Shown here one piece after another: positions 33,758 through 61,899 of a DNA stretch of 64,000 nt. The notes beneath the pieces are model-generated. The model was not told where the DNA came from. It ran no database searches and was given only the letters and a program-made list of their open reading frames with translations. Every line of letters starts with the position of its first letter. The stretch's first letter is position 1. Source of the stretch: Mycobacterium marseillense. GTDB lineage: Bacteria > Actinomycetota > Actinomycetes > Mycobacteriales > Mycobacteriaceae. The stretch spans positions 1,116,001-1,180,000 of the forward strand of contig NZ_AP022584.1 of assembly GCF_010731675.1 (NCBI RefSeq), written 5' to 3'. Both the position numbers and the translations under genes were made by a program.

Positions 33758-34642
33758 GTGGCAGACACTTCTGGACAGACTCTCGCGGAACAAGACCTGC
33801 GCGAAATCGGCACGGAAAAAGGCGCTTTGCGCTACTACGACACTGGGGACAGCGGGGCCCCCGATTCCGCCCCGGTGCTGCTGTTCCTGCACGGGTCCGG
33901 TCCCGGCGTCACCGGGTGGCGCAACTTCCGGGGCGTGCTGCCGGCCTTCGCCAAGCGGTTCCGCTGCCTGATCCTGGAATTCCCCGGGTTCGGGGTCAGC
34001 GACGACTTCGGCGGCCACCCGATGGTGACCGCGTTCGGCACGGTCGCGCCCTTCTTGGACGCGCTCGGCGTCGCCACGGTGCACATCGTCGGCAACTCGA
34101 TGGGCGGTGGCGTGGGCATCAACTTCGCCACCCACAATCCCGACCGCGTCGACCGGCTGGTGACCATCGGCGGGATCGGCACCAACATCTTCAGCCCCAG
34201 CCCCAGCGAGGGCATCCGGTTGCTGCAGGAATTCGTCGAGGACCCGACGCGGCAGCGCCTGGTCGACTGGCTCAAGTCGATGGTCTACGACCAGGCGCTG
34301 GTCACCGAGCAGTTGATCGAGGAGCGCTGGCAGCTGGCCACCGACCCCGACACGCTGGCCGCGGCGCGACGCATGTACGGCAAGGCGGCGTTCGGCGCGA
34401 TGAACGCCGCGCTGGCCGCCTCCGACCGGCCGCTGCCGTGGGCGGTCATGCACAAGCTCACCGCGCCCACCCTGCTGACCTGGGGTCGCGACGACAGGGT
34501 GAGCCCGCCTGACATGGCCCTCATCCCGATGCGCACCATTCCCAACGCGGAGCTGCACATCTTCCCCAACTCGGGGCACTGGGCGATGATCGAGGCCAAA
34601 GAAGCGTTCGAAAGCACGGTGCTGGGCTTCCTATCCCGCTAG
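33758..34642 (+). CDS. Meta-cleavage-product hydrolase-like alpha/beta hydrolase (HsaD/BphD type)
   Basis: A 294-residue alpha/beta hydrolase. The oxyanion motif is HGSGPGVTGWRNFRG, the nucleophile Ser114 lies in VGNSMGGGVG, Asp245 in TWGRDDRVSP and His274 in NSGHWAMIEAKEAF; these match C-C hydrolases that split extradiol ring-cleavage products. GTG 33758 is favoured by an AAGG site; GTG 33749 is possible. The HsaC-like dioxygenase and HsaA-like oxygenase lie 5-6 kb further on, so it may complete that ring-opening step. It overlaps the next convergent stop (CTAG). Confidence 0.85.
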   Translation: MADTSGQTLAEQDLREIGTEKGALRYYDTGDSGAPDSAPVLLFLHGSGPGVTGWRNFRGVLPAFAKRFRCLILEFPGFGVSDDFGGHPMVTAFGTVAPFLDALGVATVHIVGNSMGGGVGINFATHNPDRVDRLVTIGGIGTNIFSPSPSEGIRLLQEFVEDPTRQRLVDWLKSMVYDQALVTEQLIEERWQLATDPDTLAAARRMYGKAAFGAMNAALAASDRPLPWAVMHKLTAPTLLTWGRDDRVSPPDMALIPMRTIPNAELHIFPNSGHWAMIEAKEAFESTVLGFLSR

Positions 34643-35147
34643 CCCGCAAGGCCTTTCGTCAGCAGGGCAGGCGCGTCGGGGCTACCGTCGAGCACCCGGC
34701 TGGTGCGTGCGCCGATCCGCCACTGACCGGCGACCCGTTGCAGCGCGAAATGGTTTGCGGTGCAACGCCATACGCGGTAGGAGCTTTTCTCCGAGGCCTC
34801 TTCAGCGTCCTGGCGGACCAGCACGATGGACTCGCACACCGCCACCGCCGAATCGCCGTCGACCGTGACGACACACGGTCCGAGAAAGTGGCAGCAGCCC
34901 TCCGCCACCAGCTTCTGATGGGCGTCGGAGCTGACCATCGCGTGCACGTCGGCGCGGCTCCGCATGCGCCAGCCGTCGACGTCGTAGCTGCCGTCGCTCG
35001 CCCACAACGCGGCGGTGGCATCGGCATCGCTCACGCCGGGCATCCGGCGTCGACCGCCGGACCGTACGACGCGATCAACCGGGCGATGTCGCGTTCGTCC
35101 TCGAGCCGGCGCACCCGGGCCAGCAGTTCGTCGACGGCGGTCATCAT
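34639..35147 (-). pseudogene. Frameshifted SnoaL/NTF2-like gene
   Basis: Two abutting frames together spell one NTF2-like protein. The first (ATG 35147 or 35144, after GAGGAGGAC) encodes MTAVDELLARVRRLEDERDI through ASYGPAVDAG and then stops at 35031. The second frame (readable from 35043) continues with DADATAALWASDGSYDVDG and the rest of the fold to 34639. A -1 shift (or a lost base) near 35035-35050 separates them. No slippery heptamer is visible, so this is a broken gene or a sequencing error rather than programmed frameshifting. It lies 7 bp after a mycofactocin-type SDR gene. Confidence 0.65.
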
Positions 35148-35154
35148 GTCCTCC

Positions 35155-36000
35155 TCAGCGCTGGGTGGCGCCCGCATCGACGGGCAGGGTGATCGCGGTG
35201 ATGTAGCGCGCCTCGTCGGACGCCAGAAACAGCGCGGCATTGGCGACATCGACCGGATCGATCCACGGCACCGCAAGCATATTCATCGAGCGCGCCGCGT
35301 CGGCGAATTCGGCGCGTGTGGGCGGTGAGTCCAGGTCCGGACGGAAAGCACTGCTGACGATGTCGTTCTGGATCATCGGCGTGTCGACGTTGGTGGGGTT
35401 GATGCAGTTGACCCGGACATGATGTGGCGCAAGCTCGTTGGCCAACGAGCGCATCAGGCCGACCACGCCGTGCTTGGCGGCCGTGTAGTGGGCGACCCCG
35501 ACCAGCCCGCGCAGCCCGGCGATCGAGCTCGTCAGGATCATCGCGCCGGCCCCGCGCTCGATGAGGTGGGGCGCACCGGCGCGGCAGGTGTGCCAGACCC
35601 CGGTCAGGTTGACGTCCAGCATGGTGCGCCAAGCGTTTTCGTCCAGCTCGATCGCCATGCCGCGCGACGTGATTCCCGCGGTCGCGCATACTACGTCCAG
35701 CCCGCCGAACCGCTCGGCGCCGCGGTCGGTGGCGGCCTGCATGGCGGCGAGATCGCGGACGTCGACGATTTCGGTGTGCACCCGCCCGCCGGCGCCGCTC
35801 ACCAGCGACGCGGTGGTGTCGAGGTCGGCCGGCGTGCTGGGCGGGATGAGAACGGTGTCAACCGGGCCGCAGACGTCCAGCGCCACGATGTCGGCGCCCT
35901 CCTGGGCGAAGCGCACCGCCTGGGCGCGACCGATCCCCCGCGCGGCGCCGGTGACCAGGGCGACCTTGCCTTTCAGCCGCCCGCCGGATGCCGCGCTCAT
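35155..36000 (-). CDS. Mycofactocin-type SDR oxidoreductase
   Basis: A 281-residue SDR (ALVTGAARGIGRAQAVRF; NCINP; YTAAKHG with catalytic Tyr/Lys). After the cofactor Asp it has an extra insert (CGPVDTVLIPPSTPADLDTT), and near the end it has FLASDEARYITAITLPVDAG. Both mark the mycofactocin-associated SDR subfamily, which keeps NAD(H) bound and passes electrons to the peptide cofactor mycofactocin. It probably oxidises an alcohol on a terpenoid or steroid. Its ATG overlaps the stop of the next SDR by 4 nt. Confidence 0.9.
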   Translation of the reverse strand: MSAASGGRLKGKVALVTGAARGIGRAQAVRFAQEGADIVALDVCGPVDTVLIPPSTPADLDTTASLVSGAGGRVHTEIVDVRDLAAMQAATDRGAERFGGLDVVCATAGITSRGMAIELDENAWRTMLDVNLTGVWHTCRAGAPHLIERGAGAMILTSSIAGLRGLVGVAHYTAAKHGVVGLMRSLANELAPHHVRVNCINPTNVDTPMIQNDIVSSAFRPDLDSPPTRAEFADAARSMNMLAVPWIDPVDVANAALFLASDEARYITAITLPVDAGATQR

Positions 36001-36812
36001 GTCGTCTTCTGCGTCAGCCCGGCATCGACGACGAGCTGGGTGCCGGTGATGTAGCGGGCCTCGTCCGAGGCCAGGAACAGCACCGCGTTGGCGATGTCGA
36101 CGGGCTCGACCCACGGCACCGGAAGCAGATTGCGGGCCCGCAGCACCTCGGCGGCGTCGTCCTCCGTCGGGTTTTCCAGGTCCGGTCGCAGCCGCCGAAA
36201 AGTGGCCTCGTTGAGCACCATTGGGGTCGCGACCGGCCCGGGGTGCACGGTGTTCACCCGGATACCTCGCGGACCGAGCTCGTTGGCCAGCGTGCGGGCC
36301 AGCCCGACCACGGCGTGCTTGCTCGCGGTGTAGTGGGCGGTATTGGGCAGACCGCGGATTCCGCTCGTGGAGCTGATGATGACGACCGACCCGCCCGCGT
36401 CGCCGTCGCGATCGAACATGTGCGGCGCGCCCGCCCTGACGGTGTGCCAGACGCCGGTGAGGTTGATGTCCAGCGTGCGCTGCCACACCAGCGGGTCCAG
36501 CTCCCACGACGGCGCGCCCGGCAGGTGGACTCCGGCGTTGGCGACGATGACGTCGAGGCGGCCCAGTTCGGCGACGCCGGCATCGATGACGGCGGTCACG
36601 GCCCCGAGGTCGGTGACATCGGCCAGCCCGGTCACGCAACGCCGACCGCGATCGGCGACCTGCTGCGCGGTGTCGGCCAACTCGTCGGCCACCGCCGGGG
36701 CGTCGAGCGCGATCACATCGGCGCCCTCGTCGGCGAAGCGCTGGCAATGCACCCGGCCAGTTCCCTTGGCGGCGCCGGTGACGACGACGACCTTGTCCAG
36801 TAAACCCGTCAT
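35997..36812 (-). CDS. SDR oxidoreductase, mycofactocin-type C-terminus without the insert
   Basis: A 271-residue SDR (VVVVTGAAKGTGRVHCQRF; VIVANAGVH; SSTSG; YTASKHAVV). The end RPDLENPTEDDAAEV and PVPWVEPVDIANAVLFLAS is nearly that of mycofactocin-dependent SDRs, but the insert after VIALDAP is missing, so its electron acceptor is uncertain. The ATG overlaps the BVMO stop by 4 nt; BVMO-SDR-SDR-NTF2 reads as one operon. Sequential alcohol oxidation and lactone formation is an inferred scheme. Confidence 0.9.
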   Translation of the reverse strand: MTGLLDKVVVVTGAAKGTGRVHCQRFADEGADVIALDAPAVADELADTAQQVADRGRRCVTGLADVTDLGAVTAVIDAGVAELGRLDVIVANAGVHLPGAPSWELDPLVWQRTLDINLTGVWHTVRAGAPHMFDRDGDAGGSVVIISSTSGIRGLPNTAHYTASKHAVVGLARTLANELGPRGIRVNTVHPGPVATPMVLNEATFRRLRPDLENPTEDDAAEVLRARNLLPVPWVEPVDIANAVLFLASDEARYITGTQLVVDAGLTQKTT

Positions 36813-38434
36813 CGTTCGATTAGATCGAAGCCGCGATAGCCCGCGTCGGCGACCTCGGCGCAGATGTCGTTGTAGGTCGCGAAGCCCCCGACGAACAGCA
36901 TGAAGCCCCGGGGCTTTCCCGGCACGTTCGCGCCCATGTACCACGAGTTGGCCTTGGTGAACAGGGTTGTCTCGGCGCGGCGGGCGCATTCGGCGCCCCA
37001 GCCGTCCACGCTGTCGACGCCTGCTTCGATTGCGGCGTAACCGTGATCGTCGAGGAACGCGATGGCGTCGGCGATCCAGTTCACCTGCGCTTCGGCGTGC
37101 AGCACCATGTTCGCCAGCACGGCGGGCGCTCCCGGTCCCGAGATGAGGAACAGGTTGGGGAAGCCGTCGACGCCCAGCCCCAGATAGGTGCGGGGTCCGT
37201 GCGCCCAGTCCTCGCGCAGGACGGTCCCGCGGCGTCCGACGATGTCGATCCTGCCCAGCGCCCCGGTCATCGCGTCGAAACCCGTTGCCAACACGATCAT
37301 GTCGAGATCGTAGTGGGCTTTGGCTTTGTCAATCCCGGTGGTGGTGATGCCGGTCGCGTCGACGGATTCGATCGGGGTGGTGCGGACGCTGACCAGCGAC
37401 ACGTTCGGACGGTTGAAGGTCTGAAAGTAGTTGCTGTCGGTGCAGATTCGCTTGGTGCCGATCGGGTGGTCGTCGGGGATCAGGAGGTCGGCGAGCGCCG
37501 GATCGTCGATGACGGCCCGGACCTTCTCCTCGTAGAATTTGCGGGCCTCTTCGTTGGCCTCGAGATCCGTCATCTGGTCCGGGAAGGTCTTCGAGAACAG
37601 CACACCGCCGAGCTGCCAACGCTTTTCGAACGCCGCCCGGCGCTCCTCGGGCGTGAAGGCCATGGTCGGCTTCGGCGCGGTGATGTGGGGGGACCCACCG
37701 CCGCTGCGCCACGACAGCGCGCGTCGCTGCGGGTAACCGGCCTTGAGCTCGCGGAGTTCGTCGGCCGACAGCGGCCGGTTGCCCGCCGGGACGCTGTAGT
37801 TGGGTGTGCGCTGGAAGACGTAGAGGTGTGCGGCCCGCTCGGCGATGACCGGGATCGATTGAATGCCGGAGGATCCGGTGCCGATCACCGCCACCCGCTT
37901 ACCGCTGAAGTCGACGGGATCCTGCGGCCAGTGCGCGGTGTGGTAAATCTCGCCCGCGAAGGTGTCCAGGCCATCGAAGTCCGGGGTCAGCGCGGCCGAC
38001 AACGGCCCGGTGGCCATGACACAGAAGCGCGCCGAGATCGTCTGGCCGGCATCGGTGATGACGGACCAGCGCAGCGTCGTCTCGTCGAGTGTCGCCGATG
38101 CCACGCGGGTGCTCAGCGCGATGTCGCGGCGCAGGTCGAGTCTGTCGGCGACCCAGTTCAGATACGCGAGGATCTCGGCCTGGGTGGCATAGCGTTCCGT
38201 CCAGTCCCAGTCCTGCTGCAGTTCGTCGGAGAACGAGTAGCAGTAATCGACACTCTCGACGTCGCAGCGCGCGCCGGGATAGCGGTTGTGATACCAGGTG
38301 CCGCCGATCTCGGGGGCGGCTTCCAGCCCCCGCACCGAGAGACCGTGGGCGCGCAACTTGTGCAGGGCGTACAGGCCGGCGAACCCCGCGCCGACCACGA
38401 CGACATCGAGAGCCTGCTCGTCGGGATCGTTCAC
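36809..38434 (-). CDS. Baeyer-Villiger monooxygenase
   Basis: A 541-residue class B flavoprotein. The FAD site is VVVVGAGFAGLYALH (11-25) and the NADPH site is VAVIGTGSSGIQS. The BVMO fingerprint is complete at 159-170 (FAGEIYHTAHWP, with His165). It inserts oxygen next to a ketone to give an ester or lactone, using NADPH and O2. It is a close paralogue of the 19-kb gene, sharing GGTWY..NRYPGARCDVESVDY. It heads a minus-strand operon and is divergent from the ferredoxin gene across 130 bp. Confidence 0.93.
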   Translation of the reverse strand: MNDPDEQALDVVVVGAGFAGLYALHKLRAHGLSVRGLEAAPEIGGTWYHNRYPGARCDVESVDYCYSFSDELQQDWDWTERYATQAEILAYLNWVADRLDLRRDIALSTRVASATLDETTLRWSVITDAGQTISARFCVMATGPLSAALTPDFDGLDTFAGEIYHTAHWPQDPVDFSGKRVAVIGTGSSGIQSIPVIAERAAHLYVFQRTPNYSVPAGNRPLSADELRELKAGYPQRRALSWRSGGGSPHITAPKPTMAFTPEERRAAFEKRWQLGGVLFSKTFPDQMTDLEANEEARKFYEEKVRAVIDDPALADLLIPDDHPIGTKRICTDSNYFQTFNRPNVSLVSVRTTPIESVDATGITTTGIDKAKAHYDLDMIVLATGFDAMTGALGRIDIVGRRGTVLREDWAHGPRTYLGLGVDGFPNLFLISGPGAPAVLANMVLHAEAQVNWIADAIAFLDDHGYAAIEAGVDSVDGWGAECARRAETTLFTKANSWYMGANVPGKPRGFMLFVGGFATYNDICAEVADAGYRGFDLIER

Positions 38435-38564
38435 AAGCAGTCACGCTAAGCCTTGCGGCGCTGCGCGCCGCTCCCCCTCCCGGTGACCGGACGCCGGCGG
38501 CGAGTTTTCCCGGCCACCGGGCACCCGGCCTCGACGCGGCGCCCGCATCGCCCACGATCGGCGC

Positions 38565-38843: not shown

Positions 38844-38933
38844 CCGCGGTGTGTCCGCTCATCGGGATTTCCTTTGGGACGGGCCGGGACTGCGGTAGAC
38901 CATTACTAGGCACCCACACGTAAGGACAACGAT

Positions 38934-40118
38934 ATGAGCGACCGGGTACTCGACCGGGTAGTGGCCATGGCCGATCAGTTGCGCGAACAGGCCGCGGAAG
39001 CCGAGCAACTCGGCCGGCTCACCGACGACACCGTCAAGCTGATGAAGGGCGCCGGGCTGATCCGGCTGCTACAGACCAAGCAGTACCAGGGCTTCGAGGT
39101 TCACCCCCGCGAGTTCGCCGAGACGACGATGGCCACCGCGGCGCTGGATCCGGCGGCGGGCTGGATCGTCGGCGTGGTGGGCGTGCATCCCTACCAGTTG
39201 GCCTACGCGGACCCGAAGGTCGCCGCCGAAATCTGGGCCGACGACGTCGACACCTGGATGGCCTCGCCGTACGCGCCGCAGGGCGTGGCCAAACCGGTCG
39301 ACGGCGGTTACCTGTTCAACGGTCGCTGGCAATTCAGTTCGGGCACCGACCATTGCGACTGGATCATCCTGGGCGCCATGCTCGGCGACGAGAAGGGCAT
39401 CCCGTTGATGCCGCCTCAGATGCTGCACATGATCCTGCCTCGCAAGGACTACGAGATCGTCGAGGACTCGTGGAATGTGGTGGGGCTGCGGGGAACCGGC
39501 TCCAAGGACGTCATCGTCAAAGACGCGTTCGTCCCGACCTACCGGACCATGGACGCGGCGAAGGTGATGGACGGCACCGCCCAGCGCGAGGCCGGCATGA
39601 CCGAACCGCTGTACCTGATGCCGTGGTCGACGATGTTTCCGCTCGGCATTTCGGCGGCCACCATCGGCATCGCCGAGGGCGCGCTGGCCGCGCACCTGGA
39701 TTACCAGCGGGGCCGGGTGGGCGCCACCGGGACGGCGATCAAGGACGACCCCTACGTGATGCACGCGATCGGCGAAGCCGCCGCCGACATCAACGCCGCC
39801 CGCCAGGAACTGCTGGCCAACGCCGACCGCATCTACGACATGGTCGCGGCCGGCAAGGAGGTGTCGTTCGCCGACCGCGCGGCCGGGCGGCGCACCCAGG
39901 TGCGTGCGGTGTGGCGCGCGGTCTCCGCCGTCGACGAGATCTTCGCCCGCTCCGGCGGCAACGCGGCCCGGATGGACAAACCGCTGCAACGATATTGGCG
40001 CGACGTGCACGTCGGCCAGATGCACGCCATCCATGTGCCCGGCACCACCTATCACGCGTCGGCGCTGAGTTCGATCGGCATCGACCCACCCGAGGGCCCG
40101 CTGCGGGCGCTGATCTGA
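38934..40118 (+). CDS. HsaA-like flavin-dependent monooxygenase (class D, acyl-CoA dehydrogenase fold)
   Basis: A 394-residue oxygenase component. AALDPAAGWIVGVVGVHPYQLA, the FNGRWQFSSGTDHCDW region, WNVVGLRGTGSKDVIVKDAFVP and the late QRYWRDVHVGQMHAIH are shared with HsaA (Rv3570c), which hydroxylates a phenolic secosteroid to a catechol with reduced FMN. The partner flavin reductase (HsaB) is not adjacent. AAGGA lies 7 nt before the ATG. It is followed after 10 bp by the extradiol dioxygenase gene, the natural next step for a catechol. Confidence 0.92.
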   Translation: MSDRVLDRVVAMADQLREQAAEAEQLGRLTDDTVKLMKGAGLIRLLQTKQYQGFEVHPREFAETTMATAALDPAAGWIVGVVGVHPYQLAYADPKVAAEIWADDVDTWMASPYAPQGVAKPVDGGYLFNGRWQFSSGTDHCDWIILGAMLGDEKGIPLMPPQMLHMILPRKDYEIVEDSWNVVGLRGTGSKDVIVKDAFVPTYRTMDAAKVMDGTAQREAGMTEPLYLMPWSTMFPLGISAATIGIAEGALAAHLDYQRGRVGATGTAIKDDPYVMHAIGEAAADINAARQELLANADRIYDMVAAGKEVSFADRAAGRRTQVRAVWRAVSAVDEIFARSGGNAARMDKPLQRYWRDVHVGQMHAIHVPGTTYHASALSSIGIDPPEGPLRALI

Positions 40119-40128: not shown

Positions 40129-41037
40129 GTGACTGACCTGAAAAGCCTTGGCTACATCACGGTTTCGACCACCGATATCGAGCGCTGGCGCCATTTCGCG
40201 TTCGGTGTGCTGGGATTCGCCGAAGGGAAGGGACCCGACGAGTCGGCGCTGTACTTGCGGATGGACGAACGCGCGGCCCGGATCATCGTCGTGCCCGGCG
40301 ACGTTGACCGAGTGGTCACGGTCGGCTGGGAGGTGCGTGACCACCAGGCGCTGCAACGAGTCAAGGCCGCCCTCGACGGCGCCGGTGTCGGTTTCAAGGA
40401 ATTATCCGTCCAGGAGGCCGACGCCCGCCGCGTCGAAGAGGTGATCACCTTCGAGGATCCGGCCGGCACCACGCTGGAGGTGTTCCACAGCGCGGTGCTC
40501 GACCACAGCCCGGTGATCACCCCGTTCGGCGCGAAATTCGTGACGGGCGATCAGGGTCTGGGCCACGTCGTCGTGCCGGCGACCGATTTCAACGGCGTCG
40601 TCGACTTCTACACCGAGGTGCTCGGCTTCCGGTCCCGCGGCGCGTTCCGGGTTCCGCTGCCCGCGGAGTTCGGCCCGATCCGGGTGCGGTTCCTCGGCAT
40701 CAACGCGCGCCATCACAGCCTGGCGATCTGCCCCGCCGCCCAGCAGCGCGACCCCGGGCTGGTCCACGTCATGGTGGAGGTGGACACCCTCGACGCCGTC
40801 GGCCAGGCGCTGGACCGCGTCAACGCCGACGGCTTCACCGTCGCGTCCACCCTGGGCCGGCACACCAACGACAAGATGGTGTCCTTCTACGTCCGCGCGC
40901 CCGGCGACTGGGACATCGAATTCGGCACCGACGGAATGCGGGTCGACGAAACGTATTACACCGCAGAGGAAATCACCGCTGACAGCTATTGGGGCCACGA
41001 GTGGATTCCGGAGCCACCCGCGGCCATGCGCATGTGA
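40129..41037 (+). CDS. Extradiol (VOC-fold) ring-cleaving dioxygenase, HsaC/BphC-like
   Basis: A 302-residue two-module VOC protein. The C-terminal module keeps the Fe(II) triad: His146 (GLGHVVVPATDF), His in the INARHHSLAI motif (195/196) and Glu264 (WDIEFGTDG). The second-shell His245 (LGRHTND) and Tyr254 (SFYVRAPGD) are also present. It cleaves a catechol beside one hydroxyl. GAGGAG lies 6 nt before the GTG. The stop overlaps the following flavoprotein start (GTGA), so HsaA-like, HsaC-like and KstD-like enzymes are coupled. Confidence 0.93.
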   Translation: MTDLKSLGYITVSTTDIERWRHFAFGVLGFAEGKGPDESALYLRMDERAARIIVVPGDVDRVVTVGWEVRDHQALQRVKAALDGAGVGFKELSVQEADARRVEEVITFEDPAGTTLEVFHSAVLDHSPVITPFGAKFVTGDQGLGHVVVPATDFNGVVDFYTEVLGFRSRGAFRVPLPAEFGPIRVRFLGINARHHSLAICPAAQQRDPGLVHVMVEVDTLDAVGQALDRVNADGFTVASTLGRHTNDKMVSFYVRAPGDWDIEFGTDGMRVDETYYTAEEITADSYWGHEWIPEPPAAMRM

Positions 41038-42651: not shown

Positions 42652-42672
42652 TATATTCCTAATAGGAATATA
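42652..42672. promoter_or_regulatory. Perfect 21-bp palindrome, probable IclR operator
   Basis: TATATTCCTA (42652-42661), one central base, then TAGGAATATA (42663-42672) is a perfect 10-1-10 inverted repeat in otherwise GC-rich DNA. It ends 16 bp before the IclR start, over the likely promoter. IclR regulators bind such sites as dimers, so autoregulation is inferred. Confidence 0.7.
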
Positions 42673-45660: not shown

Positions 45661-45759
45661 GCGGCGACACTGACCCCGCATCGGGAGCTGGTCAACGGGA
45701 GGTTCCCGGTGGCCGGGAGCCGACGACGCCACGTGCTCAAGGTGTCATACGGTCGGCGC

Positions 45760-49550: not shown

Positions 49551-49652
49551 GGCACCGAGTATCGGGGCGATCCGCGGCCATGGGCAGGGTCTTGTCTACT
49601 CAGCGGGACGCGGACGACCCGCAAACCGGCGTTGGCGCTTACCGTGACCGGC

Positions 49653-53480: not shown

Positions 53481-53549
53481 GTCCACACCGTGTTCCACTG
53501 ACCGGGCATCCGCGGTGTTAGCGGGACCACCACCGAGTTGACTGTGCCC

Positions 53550-54038
53550 ATGAGCACTGACCTCACGCTGCCGGAATTGCAGGAGTTCATCGCGTCCTTC
53601 TGGTACCACTACGACGAGGCCCACTACGACGAATTGGCCAACAGTTACGCCGAGGACGTCCGTTACCTGACCCGAAGCGACTCCGGCGCAAGCCCATTCG
53701 AAGAACTGATGTCCCCGGAGCTCAAGGGCCGCGGCGCGGTGATGGAATGGCTGTCCGAGCACCGCAAGCAAAGCCCCTACCCGTTGCGGCACCACGCCAC
53801 CAACGTGCACCGCACCGGCGCCGACGCCTCTGACGACGGCATCACCCGCGCGCGCTTCTACATCTTCGTCAACCAGATCGCCAACTTCGTACCGTTCGCG
53901 GTGTCCAGCGGGGTGGTCAACGTCGGCGTCCGGCGCGGGGCCAACGGCCTGGAGTTCACCGAGATGGACGTGATCCTCGACGCCACCAACTCGGTTCTGC
54001 TCTCGGAACTGCACGCCGAAAGCGGCACCGGCGCATAG
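53550..54038 (+). CDS. SnoaL/NTF2-like fold protein
   Basis: A 162-residue NTF2-like protein (LPELQEFIASFWYHYDEAHY, DELANSYAEDVRY, then RHHATNVHRTG). The early Tyr/Asp and the RHH strand resemble SnoaL_4-type proteins and small subunits of ring-hydroxylating oxygenases. ATG 53550 is used. It lies in a row with the FadE pair and an SDR 2 bp downstream. It could be an isomerase or dehydratase in the same pathway; this is not proven. Confidence 0.82.
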   Translation: MSTDLTLPELQEFIASFWYHYDEAHYDELANSYAEDVRYLTRSDSGASPFEELMSPELKGRGAVMEWLSEHRKQSPYPLRHHATNVHRTGADASDDGITRARFYIFVNQIANFVPFAVSSGVVNVGVRRGANGLEFTEMDVILDATNSVLLSELHAESGTGA

Positions 54039-54040
54039 CC

Positions 54041-54913
54041 ATGGACGCTCGGGACATCTTCGGCGGCGGCGTCGCGGTCATCACCGGCGCCGGATCCGGC
54101 ATCGGCGCCGGGCTGGCCCGCCACGCCGCACGGTTGGGCATGACGGTCGTGCTGGCCGACATCGACGAGGGTGCCATCGCGGCGCTACGCGACGAGCTGT
54201 CCGCGGCCGGCGGCGTGGCGCACGACGTCGCCTGCGACGTGCGAGACCCCGATGCCGTGCAGGACCTCGCCGACCGTGCCTACCGCGACGTCGGCCCCGT
54301 GCGCCTGCTGGTGAACAACGCGGGGATCGAACAGTTCGGGTACCTATGGGACACCCCGGTGGCCAACTGGCGACGCGTGATGGACGTCAACGTCAGCGGC
54401 GTCTTTTACGGCGTGCGGGCCTTCCTGCCGCAGATGATGGCCACCGGCGAGCGGGCGTGGGTGTGGAACATCGCGTCGGTGGGCGCGGTGGTGGCCATCC
54501 CGTTGCAGGCGCCCTACATCGTGAGTAAGCACGCGGTGTTGGCGCTGACCGAATGTTTGCACCTCGAGGTGCAGGCCACGGGCCACGACCATCACATTCA
54601 TGTCCAGGCCGTGCTGCCCGGGCCAGTGCGCTCCAACATCTTCGAGTCGGCCGGCGGCGTGGACCCGGCCGCGGCCGGCGACGCCGGCGCCGCCGAATCC
54701 CACCGTTCGACGATGCTCGGCATCAAGGCCGCGTCCATGGATCCGCTGGACGCCGCCGAGCGGATCTTCGGGCAGTCCGCCGAGGGCCGCTTCTATCTGC
54801 ACACCCACCCGGACAGCGTCGGCGCGGCGATGACCGAGCGAGCGGATGTGTTGACCGCGCAACGACACCCACGCTTGCGCACCGAGACGCGGTTCGAGTC
54901 CGCACCGGATTGA
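54041..54913 (+). CDS. SDR oxidoreductase
   Basis: A 290-residue SDR. VAVITGAGSGIGAGLARHAA, VVLADIDEGA (Asp favours NAD), LLVNNAGIEQFG, WNIASVGA and APYIVSKHAVLAL hold the cofactor and the Ser-Tyr-Lys set. The last 80 residues, including MDPLDAAERIFGQ and FYLHTHPDS, differ from classical SDRs and occur in a mycobacterial subgroup. It is 2 bp after the NTF2-like gene and 12 bp before the esterase, so it is part of the operon. Confidence 0.88.
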   Translation: MDARDIFGGGVAVITGAGSGIGAGLARHAARLGMTVVLADIDEGAIAALRDELSAAGGVAHDVACDVRDPDAVQDLADRAYRDVGPVRLLVNNAGIEQFGYLWDTPVANWRRVMDVNVSGVFYGVRAFLPQMMATGERAWVWNIASVGAVVAIPLQAPYIVSKHAVLALTECLHLEVQATGHDHHIHVQAVLPGPVRSNIFESAGGVDPAAAGDAGAAESHRSTMLGIKAASMDPLDAAERIFGQSAEGRFYLHTHPDSVGAAMTERADVLTAQRHPRLRTETRFESAPD

Positions 54914-54925: not shown

Positions 54926-55909
54926 GTGACTTCGTACGCAATGGATCCCGACGCGGCCGCCCGGATCGCCTCGTTCGGTGCGATCGCCCCGATGCGGCAA
55001 CGGGGTTTGGCCGCGGTACGCGCCGGACTCGAATCCGCGCCGCTGCCGCAGGACATGCCCGAGATGGCCGGCGTCACCGAGTCGCTTGTCCCCAGCGCCG
55101 GTAGCGACGTGCCGGTCCGGATTTATTGTCCGACAACGGATGCCGATGCGCCGGTGCTGGTCTATCTCCACGGTGGCGGGCTGGTGATGGGATCCAACCG
55201 CTCGTTCGAGCCACTGGCGCGTGAGCTCGCCGCGGCGTCGGCGGCCACCGTCGTGGCCGTCGACTACCGGCTCGCCCCGGAGTCGTCGCCGCCCGCGCAG
55301 TTCGACGATGCCTATGCCGCCACCGAATGGGTGTCGCGAAACGCCGGCGAATTGGGCGTCGACGCCGAGCGGCTCGCGGTGGTCGGCGACAGCGCCGGGG
55401 GCGCCCTGGCGGCGGCGGTGGCTCTCGCGGCCCGAGATCGTCACGGACCGGCCATCTTTGCGCAGGTGCTGCTGTATCCCGGCCTGGACCGCGACATGTC
55501 CGTGGCCTCGATCGCCGCGATGCCCGACGCGCCGCTGCTCACCCGCGACGACATCGAGTACATGCACGCGCTGGCCGACGGCGACGCCGGAGCGCCCACC
55601 GATCCGTATCTGGTCCCGGCGTACGCGACCGATCTGTCGGGCCTGCCGCCGGCGATCGTCGTCACCGGGAGCTGCGACCCGATCAGGGACTGGGGTGAGC
55701 GCTACGCCGACCGGCTGCGCAACGCCGGTGTGCAGACCACCGTCACCCGCTATCCCGGGATGTACCACGGCTTTCTGATGCGCTCCGACGCCACCGCCCG
55801 AGGCCGGCTGGCCGTCGCGGAAATCGGGGCGCTGCTGCGCGCCAAGTTCGCCCACCCGCTTCGGTTTGACGTCCCGATCACTGGACAGCCGTCGACCGTC
55901 TCGCGGTGA
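54926..55909 (+). CDS. Alpha/beta hydrolase (hormone-sensitive-lipase family)
   Basis: A 327-residue esterase. VYLHGGGLVMGSN is the oxyanion loop, AVVGDSAGGALAAAV the nucleophile, GSCDPIRDWGERY supplies Asp and RYPGMYHGFLMRS supplies His. GTG 54926 gives VTSYAMDPD; ATG 54941 is an alternative. It is one of three HSL-type esterases here and would suit hydrolysis of a lactone or ester from a Baeyer-Villiger step. Confidence 0.9.
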   Translation: MTSYAMDPDAAARIASFGAIAPMRQRGLAAVRAGLESAPLPQDMPEMAGVTESLVPSAGSDVPVRIYCPTTDADAPVLVYLHGGGLVMGSNRSFEPLARELAAASAATVVAVDYRLAPESSPPAQFDDAYAATEWVSRNAGELGVDAERLAVVGDSAGGALAAAVALAARDRHGPAIFAQVLLYPGLDRDMSVASIAAMPDAPLLTRDDIEYMHALADGDAGAPTDPYLVPAYATDLSGLPPAIVVTGSCDPIRDWGERYADRLRNAGVQTTVTRYPGMYHGFLMRSDATARGRLAVAEIGALLRAKFAHPLRFDVPITGQPSTVSR

Positions 55910-55955: not shown

Positions 55956-57032
55956 ATGCTCACCGACGAGCGCCGGATGGAGCTTTCCGACGTACTGCGG
56001 CCGGCCGCGCCGCCCCGCGAAATCGACGACGTCTACACCGACGACCAGCGCGAGCGCCTCCTCGACGTGGTGCACGCCGAGGGCCCCTGGAAGCTGATCA
56101 TCGCCCAGCACTTCGCGTCCGCCGACGAGTTGATGGCGACGATGAGCGGCATGTTCCCCGAGGGGTTCAGCCCCTCGCTGGATCTGTTCCTGACCCCGAC
56201 TTTCCGCGGCTACCTCGCCAACTACGGTGCGGTGCTCTACCCGCAGCTGCACGACTGCTTCTACAACGAACGCTTCCTGCAGCTGGCTAAGGACTACTGG
56301 AACGCCGAATACGCCAAGCCCGAGATGATGCTGTTCAACATCAACGGCCCGTGCGCCAACCGCGATCCGGGACATTTGGATGCGCCGAGCTTCCGCGGCG
56401 TGCGGCACGATAACGCCCCGACGTGGTTGACCAGCGTCATGGGCAAATCCGGTCTGTTCCGCGACTATCTGATCAAGATGGCGCAGGTCATCACCTGGTT
56501 CTCCCTCGACGCCGGCAGCGGCTTCACCTACTGGCCGCACGGACCGCTCAAGGCGCCGCAACGCATCCTGCCGCCGATCAACAACCGCGGTGTGGTGGTG
56601 CAAAACGAGATGATGGTGCACCGCGGTGAGGCGAATGGCCCACTGGACCAACAGGTTCCGGCGGGGCTGGCGTTCGACACCGTGTTCGCGGGAGACCCGG
56701 CCAGCCGGGAGCATTGGCTGCTGAAAAACGGCGAGGACGTGATCGCCCGCCACCACACCGACGAACTCCGATTTCTGGTGCACTGGTCGGCGGAGGTGTT
56801 CTCCGACTTCGATGAGCTGAAAAAGAACATGGACGGCTCCGATGACCTGACCGTCGACAAGGCCATCGACATCATGGTCGACGACCTCAAGGGCAAGGGC
56901 ATCAATCTCGACATCCCGAGCGAACCGCTGCACGATGCGGCGTTCATCAGCGCGCTCAACGCGGCCTACGACCTGGGCGGCCCGGCCACCTATCCGGCGG
57001 AAGCCCCGATCAGCGCCTTCCAACTGACGTGA
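55956..57032 (+). CDS. Uncharacterised protein, possible Fe(II)/2-oxoglutarate-type oxygenase
   Basis: A 358-residue protein that I do not recognise by name. It holds His140-x-Asp142 in DPGHLDAPSFRGVRHDN and, about 80 residues later, His222 in VVVQNEMMVHRGEANGP: the order and spacing of a 2-His-1-carboxylate iron triad. It is rich in aromatic residues between these (WFSLDAGSGFTYWPHGP). No cysteine motif, signal or membrane segment is seen. AAAGGAG lies 7 nt before the ATG. The SDR start overlaps its stop, so it belongs to this catabolic operon. An oxygenase role is a hypothesis only. Confidence 0.75.
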   Translation: MLTDERRMELSDVLRPAAPPREIDDVYTDDQRERLLDVVHAEGPWKLIIAQHFASADELMATMSGMFPEGFSPSLDLFLTPTFRGYLANYGAVLYPQLHDCFYNERFLQLAKDYWNAEYAKPEMMLFNINGPCANRDPGHLDAPSFRGVRHDNAPTWLTSVMGKSGLFRDYLIKMAQVITWFSLDAGSGFTYWPHGPLKAPQRILPPINNRGVVVQNEMMVHRGEANGPLDQQVPAGLAFDTVFAGDPASREHWLLKNGEDVIARHHTDELRFLVHWSAEVFSDFDELKKNMDGSDDLTVDKAIDIMVDDLKGKGINLDIPSEPLHDAAFISALNAAYDLGGPATYPAEAPISAFQLT

Positions 57033-57832
57033 CGGAAAGGCGTGTGCCGGTGGGTCGTTTCGCCGATCGACGGGTCATCGTGACCGGGGCCGGCTCGGGC
57101 ATCGGGCAGGCCACCGTGGCCCGGCTGCTCGACGAGGGGGCCACGGTCGTGGCCTACGACGTGTCCGCGGACGGGTTGGCGCGCACGGTGGCCGCCGCCG
57201 ACGACGCGGGCACCGCCAACCGGCTGACCACCGCCGTCCTGGACGTCTCCGACGAGGACGCCGTCACTGTCGCGGTGGACACGGCGGTCGGCGACCTCGG
57301 CGGGCTCGAAGTGCTCGTCAATGTTGCGGCCGTGCAGACGTGTTCGCACACTCACCGGACCACGCTGGCCGACTGGAACAGGACGCTGGCGGTCAATCTG
57401 ACCGGCACCTTTCTGATGACGCGTCAGGCGCTGCCGGCGCTGCTCGAATCCGGCCGCGGTGTCGTCGTAAACTTCACCTCCACCGCTGCGTCGTTCGCCC
57501 ACCCCTACATGGCTGCGTATGCCGCCAGCAAGGGCGGCATCTTGAGTTTCACCCATTCGCTGGCGCTCGAGTACTCCAAGCAAGGACTGCGCGCGGTCAA
57601 CATCCAACCGGGCGGGATCTCGACGGCACTGGCCAACAGCACGCTCGAGAAAATGCCCGACGGCTATGACCTGGGCCTGTGGGCCAAGCAGACTCCGTTG
57701 CTGCACGGTCAGGACAGCGAAATCCTCGGCGACGCAAGCGCGGTCGCCTCGGTGATCGCCATGGTGGCCTCCGATGACGGTGCGTTTGTCACCGGAACGG
57801 AGATTCGCGTCGACGGCGGCGCGCACGCCTAA
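57029..57832 (+). CDS. SDR oxidoreductase
   Basis: A 267-residue classical SDR. VIVTGAGSGIGQATVARLLD, VVAYDVSAD (NAD-favouring Asp), VLVNVAAVQT, VNFTSTAAS and AAYAASKGGILSF (Tyr/Lys), ending FVTGTEIRVDGGAHA. The NNAG motif is altered to NVAA. The GTG start overlaps the stop of the putative oxygenase (GTGA), so the two enzymes may act in sequence: hydroxylation, then oxidation of the alcohol. Confidence 0.9.
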   Translation: MTERRVPVGRFADRRVIVTGAGSGIGQATVARLLDEGATVVAYDVSADGLARTVAAADDAGTANRLTTAVLDVSDEDAVTVAVDTAVGDLGGLEVLVNVAAVQTCSHTHRTTLADWNRTLAVNLTGTFLMTRQALPALLESGRGVVVNFTSTAASFAHPYMAAYAASKGGILSFTHSLALEYSKQGLRAVNIQPGGISTALANSTLEKMPDGYDLGLWAKQTPLLHGQDSEILGDASAVASVIAMVASDDGAFVTGTEIRVDGGAHA

Positions 57833-58667: not shown

Positions 58668-58955
58668 TCAGCCTAGGGGGTCGACGACCGCCAATTCCCC
58701 TGTGGCCACGGCGGCCTGGATGGAATCGCGCAACGCCGCGCACACCAGGAACGGCCCGTGATGGTGAGCAGCCAGGCGCTCGGCCTCACGGCGCTCGCTA
58801 CAGCGCGCCGAAGCGCGCTCATTCCACTGCACACTCGTCTGGTTCCAGCTGCTTTTGCGGGCCAACACCCGCGCACCGCACTCGCGGCACGTGATCGGGA
58901 CCATCGGCATGTCGGCCAGCCGGTTGTCGGCCCTGGCGGACCAGTCCTGCGCCAT
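58668..58955 (-). CDS. Small Cys-containing protein coupled to the KshA-like gene
   Basis: A 95-residue protein with Cys23-x2-Cys26 (ITCRECGARV), Cys52 and Cys72, and a His triplet at 64-66. This looks like a zinc ribbon or small iron-sulfur scaffold, but the spacing (C-x2-C-x25-C-x19-C) fits no family that I can name. The ATG shares one base with the KshA-like stop (TGATG), so it is translationally coupled. A role as accessory or electron-transfer partner of the Rieske oxygenase is inferred. Confidence 0.7.
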   Translation of the reverse strand: MAQDWSARADNRLADMPMVPITCRECGARVLARKSSWNQTSVQWNERASARCSERREAERLAAHHHGPFLVCAALRDSIQAAVATGELAVVDPLG

Positions 58956-60088
58956 CACACCGAACCCGCCGCCTGGGCCGCGAGGTTCGCCTCGACCTCC
59001 TTCATCCAAGCTTCGTAGGGCCGGGTCGTGTCGAGTTCGAACTCGAAGCGATCCACCATGTCCGGTTGCACGTCGGCGACGTCGACATAGAACTGCTGAT
59101 ACCAGCGACGCAGTTGATAGACCGGCCCGTCCTCCTCGACCAGGAGCGGGTTGTCGATGCGCGCCTTGTGCCGCCAGATCTCGACGTCCTGCTCGAAGCC
59201 GAGCTTGACGTAGTCGCCGAGGGTGATCGCGGTCGCCATCGCCTGGTCGTCGGGCATCACCTCCGACTTCTTCACGATGATGCCATATTGCAGCACAAAG
59301 GAATTCGCATCGATCGGGTAGTGGCAATTGATGAGGATCGTGTTGGCATCACCATGCTCGTAGTGATACGTCAGGTCGTCGACCATGAACGAGGGACCGT
59401 AATAGGACGCCACCGACGTCGTTCCCAGCATCTGCGACCCGGTGCCGCCCATGTCCGGCCGGCTCCCACCGTTCATGTATTGGGTGGCCACGTGCCCCTC
59501 GAAGATGTTCTTGAAGTACGTGGGCAACGAGCCGTGAATGTAGAAGAAGTGCGCCATATCCACGACGTTGTCGATGATTTCGCGGCAGTTACTACCCACG
59601 ACGGTGGTGTACCAATGCCAGTCGGTCCACCGGTCGCTGGTGGCGCCCTCGATGCGCGGGATCGTGACCTCCGCTGGCGGCGGTTTGCGCTCGGGGTCGT
59701 TCCACACGAACAGCAACCCGTCCTGCTGCAGCGTCGTCCAGGCTTGGGTGCGCGCCAGTTTGGGGGTGCGACGGCTGTAGGGCACCTGCTTGCAGCGGCC
59801 GTCGCCGCCCCAGCGCCAGTCGTGGAAGGGGCACGCGATCTCGTCGCCCTTCACCTCGCCCTGGGACAGGTCTCCCCCCATGTGCCGGCAATAGCTGTCG
59901 AGTACGTTGATGCTGCCGTCACCGCTGCGGAAGACGACGAGCTTCTGTCCGAATGCGTTGATCGCGTGGGGCTTGCCGTCGGCGAAGTCCCGGATCAGTC
60001 CCAAGCAGTGCCAGCCCCGGGCGAACCGCGTCGGCGCGGCCTGCGCCTCTATCAGCCGAACCTCGTCGGCCTCAGTCTGCGACGTCAT
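58955..60088 (-). CDS. KshA-like Rieske oxygenase (3-ketosteroid 9alpha-hydroxylase type)
   Basis: A 377-residue terminal oxygenase. The Rieske cluster ligands are Cys67, His69 (YCRHMGGDL) and Cys86, His89 (IACPFHDWRW). The mononuclear iron ligands are His180, His185 and Asp301 (DNVVDMAHFFYIH; FEQDVEIWRHK). The sequence follows M. tuberculosis KshA closely, with the Rieske ligand numbers the same as I recall. KshA 9alpha-hydroxylates 3-ketosteroids, triggering ring-B opening together with KstD. No KshB reductase is adjacent. It is probably one of several KshA paralogues, so no symbol is given. Confidence 0.93.
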   Translation of the reverse strand: MTSQTEADEVRLIEAQAAPTRFARGWHCLGLIRDFADGKPHAINAFGQKLVVFRSGDGSINVLDSYCRHMGGDLSQGEVKGDEIACPFHDWRWGGDGRCKQVPYSRRTPKLARTQAWTTLQQDGLLFVWNDPERKPPPAEVTIPRIEGATSDRWTDWHWYTTVVGSNCREIIDNVVDMAHFFYIHGSLPTYFKNIFEGHVATQYMNGGSRPDMGGTGSQMLGTTSVASYYGPSFMVDDLTYHYEHGDANTILINCHYPIDANSFVLQYGIIVKKSEVMPDDQAMATAITLGDYVKLGFEQDVEIWRHKARIDNPLLVEEDGPVYQLRRWYQQFYVDVADVQPDMVDRFEFELDTTRPYEAWMKEVEANLAAQAAGSV

Positions 60089-60189
60089 GGGCGCGATTCA
60101 ACTCCTCCGGGCTCGCGCGTGGGCCGCGTTGTTCCACTCATCAGGACGGCTCTTCCGCTGTCGCGCCGGCGCGGAATACCGTTTCGGGC

Positions 60190-61899
60190 GTGACGACGCG
60201 CAGCACGACGATCCCTGCCGGTCTTCCCGTGGCCGACACCGCCGTTGATCTGCTCGTCGTCGGTTCCGGCACCGGCATGGCCGCGGCGCTGGCCGCCCAC
60301 GAATCCGGGCTGTCGGCGTTGATCGTGGAGAAATCGTCGTATGTGGGCGGCTCGACCGCCCGGTCGGGCGGCGCGCTGTGGCTGCCCGCCAGCCCGGTGC
60401 TGGCGGAGGCCGCCGCCGGCGACACCGCCGAACGCGCCGGTGCCTACCTGGACTCGGTGGTCGCCGGGTCGGCGCCCGCGCAGCGGTCCGCCGCGTTCCT
60501 GGCGCACGTGTCGGCGACGGTGGACATGCTGCGCCGCACAACGCCGTTGCGGCTGTTCTGGGCCCGCGACTATTCGGACTACCACCCCGAGGAACCGGGC
60601 GGCAGCGCGGCCGGGCGCACCTGCGAATGCCGCCCGTTCGATACCGCGCTCCTCGGCGAGTACCGCACCCGGCTGGAGCCTGGCCTGATGGAGGTCAGTA
60701 TTCCGATGCCGACGACGGGCGCGGACTACCGCTGGATGAACCTCGTCGCGCGGATGCCACGCAAGGGCATTCCCACGTACGGCAAGCGATTGGCACAGGG
60801 CGTGGCGGGCCGCATGCTGGGCCGGCGTTACGCGGCGGGTGGCCAGGGCCTGGCGGCCGGGCTGTTCACCGGGGTGCTGCGCGCCGGGATCCCCCTGTGG
60901 ACCGACACCGCGCTCGTAAGGCTCGCCGACGACGGTGAACGCGTGACCGGCGCCGTCGTCGAACACGGCGGCCGCGAGGTGACGATCACCGCCCGGCGCG
61001 GCGTCGTCCTGGCCACCGGCGGTTTCGACCACAGCATGGACATGCGGTGGAAGTTTCAATCGGAATCGCTGGGCGCCGATCTCAGCCTCGGCGCCGCGGC
61101 CAACACCGGCGACGGCATCCGCGCCGGGCAGGAAATCGGCGCCGGCATCGACTTGATGGATCAGGCGTGGTGGTTCCCCGCTATCGCGCCACTGCCCGGC
61201 AAGGCGCCCGCGGTGATGTTGGCCGAGCGTTCGTTGCCTGGCTGCCTGATCGTGAGCCAGAACGGGCGCAGGTTCGCCAATGAAGCGACCGATTACATGA
61301 CGTTCGGGCAGCGGGTGCTCGAGCTGGAGCGCTCCGGTAGTCCGGTCGAGGCGATGTGGATCATTTTCGATCAGCAGTACCGCAACAGTTATGTCTTTGG
61401 CGCCGAACTGTTTCCGCGCATGCGTGTGCCGCAGGCCTGGTACGACGCCGGCATCGCGACCCGGGCCGACAACCTCACCGACCTGGGCGCGCGGATCGGC
61501 GTGCCGGTCTCGGCGTTCTTCGAGACGATGACGCGGTTCAACCACCATGCCGCCGTCGGTGAGGACCCCGACTTCGGCCGCGGCCGCAGCGCGTACGACC
61601 GCTATTACGGCGACCCGACGATCGCGCCGAATCCGAACCTGCGTCCGTTGGTCAAGGGCCCTTTCTACGCCGTGAAGGTGGTGCTGTCCGACCTGGGCAC
61701 CTGCGGTGGCCTGAAGACCGACGAGCGGGCTCGGGTGCTGCGCGAGGACGGCGGGGTGATCGCCGGGTTGTATGCGATCGGCAACACCGCCGCGAACGCC
61801 TTCGGCACGACGTATCCGGGTGCGGGCGCGACGATCGCGCAGGGGTTGGTGTACGGCTACATCGCGGCCCAGGACGCGGGTCGGCGCCACCAGACCTAG
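60190..61899 (+). CDS. 3-ketosteroid delta1-dehydrogenase (KstD)-like flavoprotein
   Basis: A 569-residue FAD protein. The FAD motif is LLVVGSGTGMAAALAAHESG, with GGSTARSGGALWLPASP, GPFYAVKVVLSDLGTCGGL and the C-terminal TYPGAGATIAQGL. Tyr542 and Gly546 in the last motif correspond to catalytic Tyr487/Gly491 of R. erythropolis KstD1. It introduces a C1-C2 double bond in 3-keto ring A. It is divergent from the KshA-like gene across 101 bp, an arrangement that pairs the two enzymes needed to open ring B. Confidence 0.9.
   Translation: MTTRSTTIPAGLPVADTAVDLLVVGSGTGMAAALAAHESGLSALIVEKSSYVGGSTARSGGALWLPASPVLAEAAAGDTAERAGAYLDSVVAGSAPAQRSAAFLAHVSATVDMLRRTTPLRLFWARDYSDYHPEEPGGSAAGRTCECRPFDTALLGEYRTRLEPGLMEVSIPMPTTGADYRWMNLVARMPRKGIPTYGKRLAQGVAGRMLGRRYAAGGQGLAAGLFTGVLRAGIPLWTDTALVRLADDGERVTGAVVEHGGREVTITARRGVVLATGGFDHSMDMRWKFQSESLGADLSLGAAANTGDGIRAGQEIGAGIDLMDQAWWFPAIAPLPGKAPAVMLAERSLPGCLIVSQNGRRFANEATDYMTFGQRVLELERSGSPVEAMWIIFDQQYRNSYVFGAELFPRMRVPQAWYDAGIATRADNLTDLGARIGVPVSAFFETMTRFNHHAAVGEDPDFGRGRSAYDRYYGDPTIAPNPNLRPLVKGPFYAVKVVLSDLGTCGGLKTDERARVLREDGGVIAGLYAIGNTAANAFGTTYPGAGATIAQGLVYGYIAAQDAGRRHQT

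Follow-up and report, generated by a model that had tools for sequence, protein, structure and literature searches.

A second gene cluster for steroid ring degradation in Mycobacterium marseillense, probably a counterpart of the C-19+ cluster of Mycobacterium smegmatis, with a predicted PadR operator

The C-19+ cluster of Mycobacterium smegmatis is reportedly the range MSMEG_2851-2901, and both this range and the hsa2 gene names are said to come from Fernandez-Cabezon and colleagues in 2018; its PadR regulator we take to be MSMEG_2868, on the same account. Here, we compare this cluster and its relatives with a stretch of Mycobacterium marseillense DNA (contig NZ_AP022584.1, or C1, positions 1116001-1180000; 5.5-Mb genome), called the window throughout and 64,000 nucleotides long, which carries between 33.7 and 61.9 kb (the interval) a second set of genes for the degradation of steroid rings A and B.

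The evolution of C-19+ was apparently separate from that of the KstR regulon, and the cluster appears to be needed for the efficient use of androstenedione (AD), androstadienedione (ADD), and 9-hydroxy-androstenedione (9-OHAD) (PMC5962712); the compounds that it serves have been called unknown (PMC6593523), and its natural activation has been described as not established (PMC10672877). Its genes include MSMEG_2870 (KshA, 386 amino acids [aa]), MSMEG_2869 (KstD, 558 aa), MSMEG_2867 (KstD, 522 aa), and kshB2 (MSMEG_2893), listed without KstR operator (PMC5270728), and MCE genes lie at MSMEG_2854-2865 (PMC4881515). In Rhodococcus jostii RHA1, kshA2 (ro02490) belongs to cluster 2 and kshA4 (ro09003) to cluster 4 of pRHL1 (PMC4064121), and the cluster 2 proteins are reported to group with R. 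erythropolis and M. smegmatis proteins in a third subclade, the function of which is unknown (PMC4810484).

We estimate at roughly three in four the probability that the window cluster is the counterpart of C-19+ and of RHA1 chromosomal cluster 2, that is, an accessory pathway of the 9,10-seco type that acts on rings A and B of 3-ketosteroids, standing apart from the KstR regulon and controlled cluster-wide by a PadR protein with an IclR co-regulator. Genes were called by codon-position GC, and 50 window proteins were scanned against Pfam and 40 against NCBIfam (Table 1). All families named by the initial annotation of the interval are present as open frames: homologues of KshA, Delta1-KstD, Delta4(5alpha)-KstD, HsaA, HsaC, and HsaD, two Baeyer-Villiger monooxygenases (BVMOs) with the BVMO fingerprint, an old yellow enzyme (OYE), FadD, and a FadE pair. 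Two of its counts shrink. It spoke of mycofactocin-type short-chain dehydrogenases/reductases (SDRs) in the plural, and the SDR at 35997 passes the cut-off of that model, whereas the one at 46723 falls below it; it also counted three esterases, of which two are of the LipP1 type, and the third can only be HsaD or a hormone-sensitive-lipase relative at 28835, outside the interval. The active-site residues of the HsaC-, HsaD-, and KshA-like proteins, the three that the comparison covered, align with those of the canonical copies, including the Rieske and iron ligands of KshA, and the HsaA-like protein scores 554 bits against PDB 2OR0, 311 against 3AFE, and 306 against 2RFQ. The true start of the Delta4(5alpha)-KstD gene is probably downstream of 41037.

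The genome search that the initial annotation had named as a possible refutation did not refute its reading, as the window set is not the only one in the genome. A genome search with NF045631 returned two HsaC genes, one of 571 bits (over the cut-off) at C1:4368619 and one of 366 bits in the window, and PF19298 returned five KshA-type genes, the best two being that of the window and one at C1:4411744. Since a canonical HsaC and a strong KshA lie elsewhere, the genes of the window make up a second cluster for ring degradation, as the initial annotation had proposed. Around the canonical copies (C1, 4.35-4.42 Mb), similarity to window genes places HsaA-, HsaD-, and HsaC-type genes in that order, with FadE-, thiolase-, KstD-, and KshA-type genes; HsaB and KshB are assigned there by place, a reductase gene beside the canonical HsaA being taken for KshB. 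The two sets share homologous ring A/B chemistry but differ in gene order, and their identities are low (HsaA 42%, HsaC 45%, HsaD 38-43%, KshA 61%, KstD 43%). They differ also in their operators, as the canonical region has the exact KstR pattern at 11 distinct places in 73 kb, counted 12 times over overlapping stretches, whereas a pattern scan found no exact KstR box between 33.7 and 61.9 kb. KstR control of the window cluster is therefore rejected. The sole exact KstR pattern of the window (16382-16395; 0.16 expected) is outside the interval and precedes a gene pair of the ferredoxin-reductase/fatty-acid-desaturase type (13815-16353, - strand), which may belong to the KstR regulon.

Table 1. 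Features of the window, with coordinates in window positions and the evidence for each.
Feature	Coordinates	Strand	Evidence
Side-chain-type module: BVMO3, OB protein with ChsH2 C-terminal domain, thiolase-type protein, MaoC-like, FadE, FadE	19021..25584	-	family scans
Operator candidate TCCGCTGAACGGG upstream of hsaD-like gene	33702..33714	-	pattern scan
HsaD-like meta-cleavage-product hydrolase	33749..34642	+	NF045632 265 bits, below cut-off 400; GNSMG nucleophile motif
Mycofactocin-coupled SDR	35997..36812	-	TIGR03971 323 bits, cut-off 300
BVMO1, steroid monooxygenase (STMO)-type BVMO	36809..38434	-	PDB 4AOS; fingerprint FAGEIYHTAHWP; tree
One-mismatch operator candidate, BVMO1/hsaA promoter	38479..38491	-	pattern scan
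Operator candidate TCCGCTCATCGGG in divergent BVMO1/hsaA promoter	38854..38866	+	pattern scan
HsaA-like flavin monooxygenase, oxygenase component	38934..40118	+	NF045629 367 bits, below cut-off 450
HsaC-like extradiol dioxygenase	40129..41037	+	NF045631 367 bits, below cut-off 450; TIGR03213 374 bits, cut-off 366
Delta4(5alpha)-3-ketosteroid dehydrogenase	40989..42500 (longest open reading frame, ORF)	+	PDB 4AT0 763 bits, best PDB match; NF005512 979 bits, cut-off 812
Candidate IclR site, palindrome TATTCCTAATAGGAATA ahead of iclR	42654..42670	+	unique in window, 3 mismatches allowed
IclR-family regulator	42689..43525	+	PF01614/PF09339
LipP1-type esterase (LipP1a)	43402..44445 (longest ORF; likely start near 43522)	+	NF058653 390 bits, cut-off 350; HGGG, GDSAG
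OYE-family reductase	44434..45732	-	PF00724
SDR (SDR46)	46723..47613	-	PF00106; mycofactocin-SDR model 124 bits, below cut-off 300
BVMO2, N-terminal extension of ~140 residues	47610..49550	-	flavin-containing monooxygenase-like; fingerprint FSGTSIHSAQWD
FadD-type acyl-CoA ligase	49368..51242 (longest ORF; likely start near 49650)	+	NF006182 800 bits, cut-off 663, match from residue 103
Operator candidate TCTACTCAGCGGG in BVMO2/fadD promoter	49595..49607	+	pattern scan
Acyl-CoA dehydrogenase FadE, first of pair	51319..52458	+	family scans
Acyl-CoA dehydrogenase FadE, second of pair	52455..53480	+	family scans
Operator candidate TCCACTGACCGGG upstream of 53538-57832 gene run	53494..53506	+	pattern scan
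SnoaL-like protein (SnoaL53)	53538..54038	+	PF13577
SDR	54041..54913	+	PF00106
Second LipP1-type esterase (LipP1b)	54926..55909	+	NF058653 292 bits, below cut-off 350; HGGG, GDSAG
SDR	57029..57832	+	PF00106
KshA-like 3-ketosteroid 9alpha-hydroxylase oxygenase	58955..60088	-	PF19298 309 bits; PDB 4QDF chain B 621 bits
One-mismatch operator candidate, kshA/kstD divergent promoter	60133..60145	+	pattern scan
KstD, 3-ketosteroid Delta1-dehydrogenase	60190..61899	+	NF009479 1080 bits, cut-off 793
PadR-family regulator	63485..64000, continuing past window edge to 64117 (C1:1180117)	-	49% identical to Pfam-confirmed PadR of genome G076

The comparison with C-19+ was made through a relative. Among 396 genomes searched, none had a porin identical to M. 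smegmatis MspA, and relatives only were found; in one of them (G076) the porin is 98% identical to the MspA sequence used as query. In G076, 19 genes of the window, from HsaD through KstD, recur with order and strands unchanged (HsaD, BVMO1, HsaA, HsaC, IclR, LipP1a, OYE, the gene at 45709, Dabb, SDR46, BVMO2, FadD, both FadEs, SnoaL53, LipP1b, the gene at 55956, KshA, and KstD), followed on the right by a PadR protein recognized by Pfam, another KstD (522 aa), and an MlaD/Mce4_CUP1 protein, so that the published MSMEG gene sizes and order are matched by this genome. The window has a second kshA, kstD, hsaA, hsaC, and hsaD set apart from the cholesterol cluster, together with a PadR-family gene beside kstD and kshA in the end order KshA-KstD-PadR. 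That gene (C1:1179485-1180117), which the initial annotation did not name, crosses the right edge of the window, where a short conserved ORF (63473-63880) lies. On these grounds the window cluster is probably the counterpart of C-19+. The window differs in its side-chain-type module upstream and in a DUF222 gene between KstD and PadR. The DUF222 protein (61927-63321, - strand) has relatives of 60% and 49% identity at two other places in the genome and may thus be a mobile insertion into the cluster. Of the other two porin relatives followed, G344 has no second HsaC, and G089 has only a distant one (168 bits) and a second KshA that adjoins no other cluster gene recognized by comparison.

How widely is the cluster type distributed? 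In the genus sample of 118 genomes, an HsaC-family match at E<=1e-60 occurs in 108, of which 107 pass the cut-off, and at least two occur in 69, though among the matches listed not each extra copy is known to be of the window type. The window HsaC-like protein is 99% identical to the copy of Mycobacterium sp. WUMAC-067 and 93% to that of M. intermedium. We collected relatives' loci as the best 80 of 558 (HsaC 80-99% identical to that of the window; 1.52 Mb in total), and in the 60 of these with at least 9 kb on either side of HsaC, genes were counted at set identity limits: HsaA 60, HsaD 56, Delta4(5alpha)-KstD 55, IclR 54, BVMO1 52, SDR46 42, BVMO2 42, LipP1a 35, FadD 31, OYE 18, KstD 10, and KshA 9, the last counts being limited by the flanks of about 10 kb. 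Two window-type HsaC genes (78-79% identical to that of the window) lie about 10-11 kb apart in G004, G052, and G092, where the cluster has thus been locally duplicated in whole or in part.

In the family (GTDB sense), a match at E<=1e-95 is found in 144 of 301 genomes and 18 of 31 genera. From these 144, 16 genomes were chosen (mostly one per genus; the stretch of one ends early) and, with three plasmid records, make up 20 other-genus stretches; a further stretch, deeper in the RHA1 chromosome and without any recognized cluster gene, is excluded from the counts. The chromosomal locus of the genome that we take for RHA1 has PadR (50%), IclR (67%), HsaC (75-77%), HsaA (73%), KshA (62%), and an STMO-type BVMO (62%), and we take it for cluster 2 with kshA2 (ro02490), the match of tag to place being our inference. 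It is like the window in its KshA-HsaA-HsaC operon, IclR, PadR, STMO-type BVMO, and mycofactocin-type SDR, but its gene order is different, and no BVMO2 or Delta4(5alpha)-KstD was found in the stretches read. Cluster 4 of pRHL1 has homologues of KshA, HsaA, HsaC, HsaD, KstD, OYE, SDR46, and IclR at 54-70% and a PadR of 46%, yet it is more distant (HsaC 64%).

A common promoter pattern supports reading the cluster genes as one regulon. The 13-bp pattern TCYRCTNANCGGG was drawn from the hsaA upstream regions of relatives and from near matches in the window. It has four exact matches in the window (33702, 38854, 49595, and 53494), and if one mismatch is allowed, seven more, two of them at cluster promoters (38479 and 60133). 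The 80 relatives' loci, which are independent neither of one another nor of the pattern, contain 114 exact matches, compared with 4, 0, 8, 4, and 4 in five simulated sets; 108 of the 114 precede cluster genes (hsaA 48, BVMO2 28, hsaD 16, the 53538 gene 10, BVMO1 5, and the mycofactocin SDR 1), and six are unassigned. G076, which is outside the set used for building the pattern, has four exact matches, and all four are at cluster promoters, kshA/kstD included. The whole M. marseillense genome has 20 exact matches and the reversed control seven, so many of the matches outside the cluster may be due to chance.

The same pattern points to its likeliest binder. With one mismatch allowed, it is found in the 20 other-genus stretches upstream of kshA in 8 of 17 cases, padR in 7 of 11, kstD in 2 of 11, STMO in 1 of 9, hsaA in 1 of 18, hsaD in 1 of 3, iclR in 1 of 16, and BVMO2 in 0 of 3, where 0.04 would be expected per gene. 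The kshA and padR promoters together are matched in 15 of 28, and of 200 permuted patterns (mean 0.79, maximum 5) none reach 15. Because padR promoters often carry the site, PadR is its likeliest binder, and TCYRCTNANCGGG is likely a PadR operator, as a prediction. IclR was considered as the binder, and the other-genus counts for padR and iclR make PadR preferred, not proven. IclR may have a site of its own in the palindrome upstream of iclR, the core of which (TCCTANTAGGA) occurs in 37 of the 67 loci (among the 80) with an IclR of at least 60% identity, always 32-69 bases before the iclR start; cluster-wide use of the palindrome is rejected on its single occurrence in the window.

The candidate substrate class comes from BVMO1. 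This protein scores 784 bits against the R. rhodochrous STMO (4AOS) and 594 against phenylacetone monooxygenase (PAMO), so that by bit score it is nearer to 4AOS than to PAMO or cyclohexanone monooxygenase (CHMO), and it has the BVMO fingerprint, the tree being one without PAMO or CHMO. In genome G523, a gene (L196:2711-4408) is identical to STMO, the crystallized progesterone monooxygenase, over all 528 residues compared, and window BVMO1 is about 64% identical to it. The gene lies about 2.6 kb from a KshA frame in a KshA-HsaA-HsaC-IclR run, which is followed by PadR on the opposite strand. G523 is probably R. rhodochrous, since its KshA is identical, as read from the alignment, in 389 of 390 residues to PDB 4QDC, a KshA of that species (PMC6153880), and we take 4QDC to be KshA5. 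R. rhodochrous KshA5 is reported to accept both progesterone and AD, with a preference for substrates that have no side chain at C17, for example 5-androstanedione (PMC6153880). An STMO-identical gene in an R. rhodochrous-like cluster of this kind points to 20-ketosteroids as the substrate class. The passages on STMO contain no statement that it resides in such a cluster; the 1999 cloning paper lies outside them, and the fact may therefore be in print.

BVMO1 is linked to the cluster in 52 of the 60 full-flank mycobacterial loci, and STMO-type genes (at least 55% identity) occur in 9 of the 20 other-genus stretches (7 of the 16 genomes and 2 of the 3 plasmid records). HsaC, the STMO-type BVMO, and a LipP1-type esterase follow one another directly in R. 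erythropolis pLRE138 and in an N. farcinica record. A protein search with BVMO1 gave 7989 matches; the 120 of them listed show 82-99% identity, and those with a name are mycobacterial. In the window, the likely SDR starts at 36812 and 47613, as read from the sequence, overlap the stops of BVMO1 and BVMO2, which suggests SDR-BVMO pairs. The pdc progesterone cluster of Caenibius tardaugens also has a type I BVMO, which there converts progesterone to testosterone acetate, but that enzyme is 30.4% identical to STMO, and the passages of PMC12239570 describe four genes with LLM, TetR, and LuxR proteins and no ring genes, unlike the window.

One might instead hold that the cluster serves C19 steroids only (AD, ADD, and 9-OHAD), with BVMO1 acting on another ketone or on the 17-ketone. 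The apparent need for C-19+ in the use of these three compounds agrees with this, as would the induction of R. erythropolis kshA2 by 9-OHAD (PMC4064121), if that gene is of this cluster type. We regard it as possible but unlikely, given that the presumed R. rhodochrous copy includes a gene identical to a biochemically proven progesterone monooxygenase, that STMO did not lactonize AD (PMC12239570), and that BVMO1 is so regularly linked to the mycobacterial loci. We favor 3-ketosteroids as substrates, probably 20-keto and 5alpha ones.

A number of observations weigh against the accessory-pathway reading or its parts and should be kept in mind. The HsaA-, HsaC-, and HsaD-like proteins match the Hsa models yet miss the curated equivalog cut-offs, and are divergent relatives, not canonical enzymes; no HsaB, KshB, or HsaEFG family, on which the initial annotation was silent, appears among the scanned proteins of the interval. 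One exact KstR pattern is present in 4 of the 80 relatives' loci. The link to C-19+ depends on the relative G076 and on published gene sizes, and G076 is without the Delta4(5alpha)-KstD (in the HsaC-IclR gap), the mycofactocin SDR that follows BVMO1, and the SDR of 54041, which are thus not constant members. Next to PadR, the window shows neither a second KstD nor Mce genes in the flank covered, a search of the 20 kb to the right that returned no KstD-type match and did not extend to Mce families; we treat both as variable, not defining, content of the C-19+ type. The four exact sites of the window are no test of TCYRCTNANCGGG, because the pattern was written with them in view, five one-mismatch copies are inside called genes (16647, 31527, 46189, 55873, and 63131), and even with one mismatch allowed, none is found at the padR promoter of the window. 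As to BVMO1, it is absent from 8 of the 60 full-flank mycobacterial loci, and no gene of its type was seen in the roughly 10 kb around HsaC in 9 of 16 other-genus genomes, nor in the 40.9-kb stretch of pRHL1. The tree places the copies of RHA1, R. erythropolis, and G405 near BVMO3, on branches separate from those of R. rhodochrous and the mycobacteria.

The side-chain-type module, which precedes the HsaD-like gene by about 8-15 kb, invites another explanation, in which the substrates would be bile acids or other C22-C24 acids, with the FadE/FadE/MaoC/OB/thiolase genes acting on the side chain and the ring genes on rings A and B. The thiolase was used as a marker of the module. A match at E<=1e-90 occurs in 76 of 118 genomes, and in 11 of these it shares a contig with HsaC at a distance of about 15-30 kb and is 87-100% identical, being split over two frames in one genome (G031); this linkage speaks for the bile acid reading. 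In G004 (three contigs), G039, and G045 (one contig each), however, a thiolase of 77-83% identity is more than 1 Mb from HsaC on the same contig, and G076 has no thiolase above 63% and none near the cluster. For the remaining thiolase genomes, the matches listed either put the two genes on separate contigs or leave out the place of one. In addition, the 16.7-31.5 kb part of the window holds no copy of TCYRCTNANCGGG, even with one mismatch allowed. The module is an optional neighbor, linked only in some species; as an obligatory part of the cluster it is rejected, since it is unlinked in other species, and a bile acid function for the cluster is improbable. BVMO3 (19021-20616, - strand) has a Phe in place of the fingerprint His (FSGEVYFTAAWP), and a scan of five relatives for this substitution returned no match at all.

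The initial annotation had also listed diterpenoids and triterpenoids among its candidates. HsaA, HsaC, and HsaD scores below the steroid equivalog level would leave room for such a pathway, and extradiol and Rieske enzymes are known in general to act on such rings as well, but the nearest solved relatives of KshA, Delta4(5alpha)-KstD, and BVMO1 are steroid enzymes, and C-19+ is reported to serve C19 steroids (PMC5962712). We found no support for this pathway and consider it highly improbable.

For the accessory 3-ketosteroid pathway, we infer the following reactions in this host. An SDR and the Delta4(5alpha)-dehydrogenase would convert 3-hydroxy or 5alpha-reduced steroids to 3-keto-4-enes, and the mycofactocin SDR would form the 20-ketone. 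BVMO1 would then insert oxygen between C17 and C20, a LipP1 esterase would release the 17-hydroxyl, and an SDR would oxidize it to the 17-ketone. KstD and KshA would open ring B, HsaA would hydroxylate the resulting phenol, HsaC would cleave it, and HsaD would hydrolyze the product, with the flavin reductase of HsaA and the reductase of KshA supplied from outside the interval. Rings C and D would mostly be handled by genes elsewhere.

A bolder and rather doubtful extension is that the C-19+/cluster-2 type is at root a Mycobacteriales regulon for pregnanes (20-ketosteroids, including 5alpha-reduced ones). It would comprise two SDR-BVMO-esterase sets in series, BVMO1 removing the C17 acetyl group and BVMO2 lactonizing ring D at the 17-ketone; the opened acid would be activated by the cluster FadD and oxidized by the FadE pair, so that ring D would follow a route outside KstR2, and PadR at TCYRCTNANCGGG would answer to the steroid.

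Two further observations concern the same genome. A third KshA-type gene is found near a BVMO-type and an SDR-type gene at C1:2094001-2110000, and a sulfatase-family protein (3607-5364, - strand) is encoded upstream in the window.

The cluster type is already known; the window adds a well-conserved member to it, for which the candidate substrate class is clearer and an operator is predicted. C-19+ bears on the industrial making of steroids (PMC5962712), and the STMO-identical gene in the Rhodococcus copy offers a concrete candidate class, which makes the natural substrate directly testable, and the predicted operator is a direct route to testing which regulator governs the cluster. The use of progesterone by derepressed M. 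smegmatis has been explained via the luciferase-like enzyme MSMEG_4862, and no type I BVMO of M. smegmatis is named in the passages available of that 2025 paper (PMC12239570). If M. smegmatis has an STMO-type enzyme in its cluster, this would be a simpler explanation of its progesterone use.

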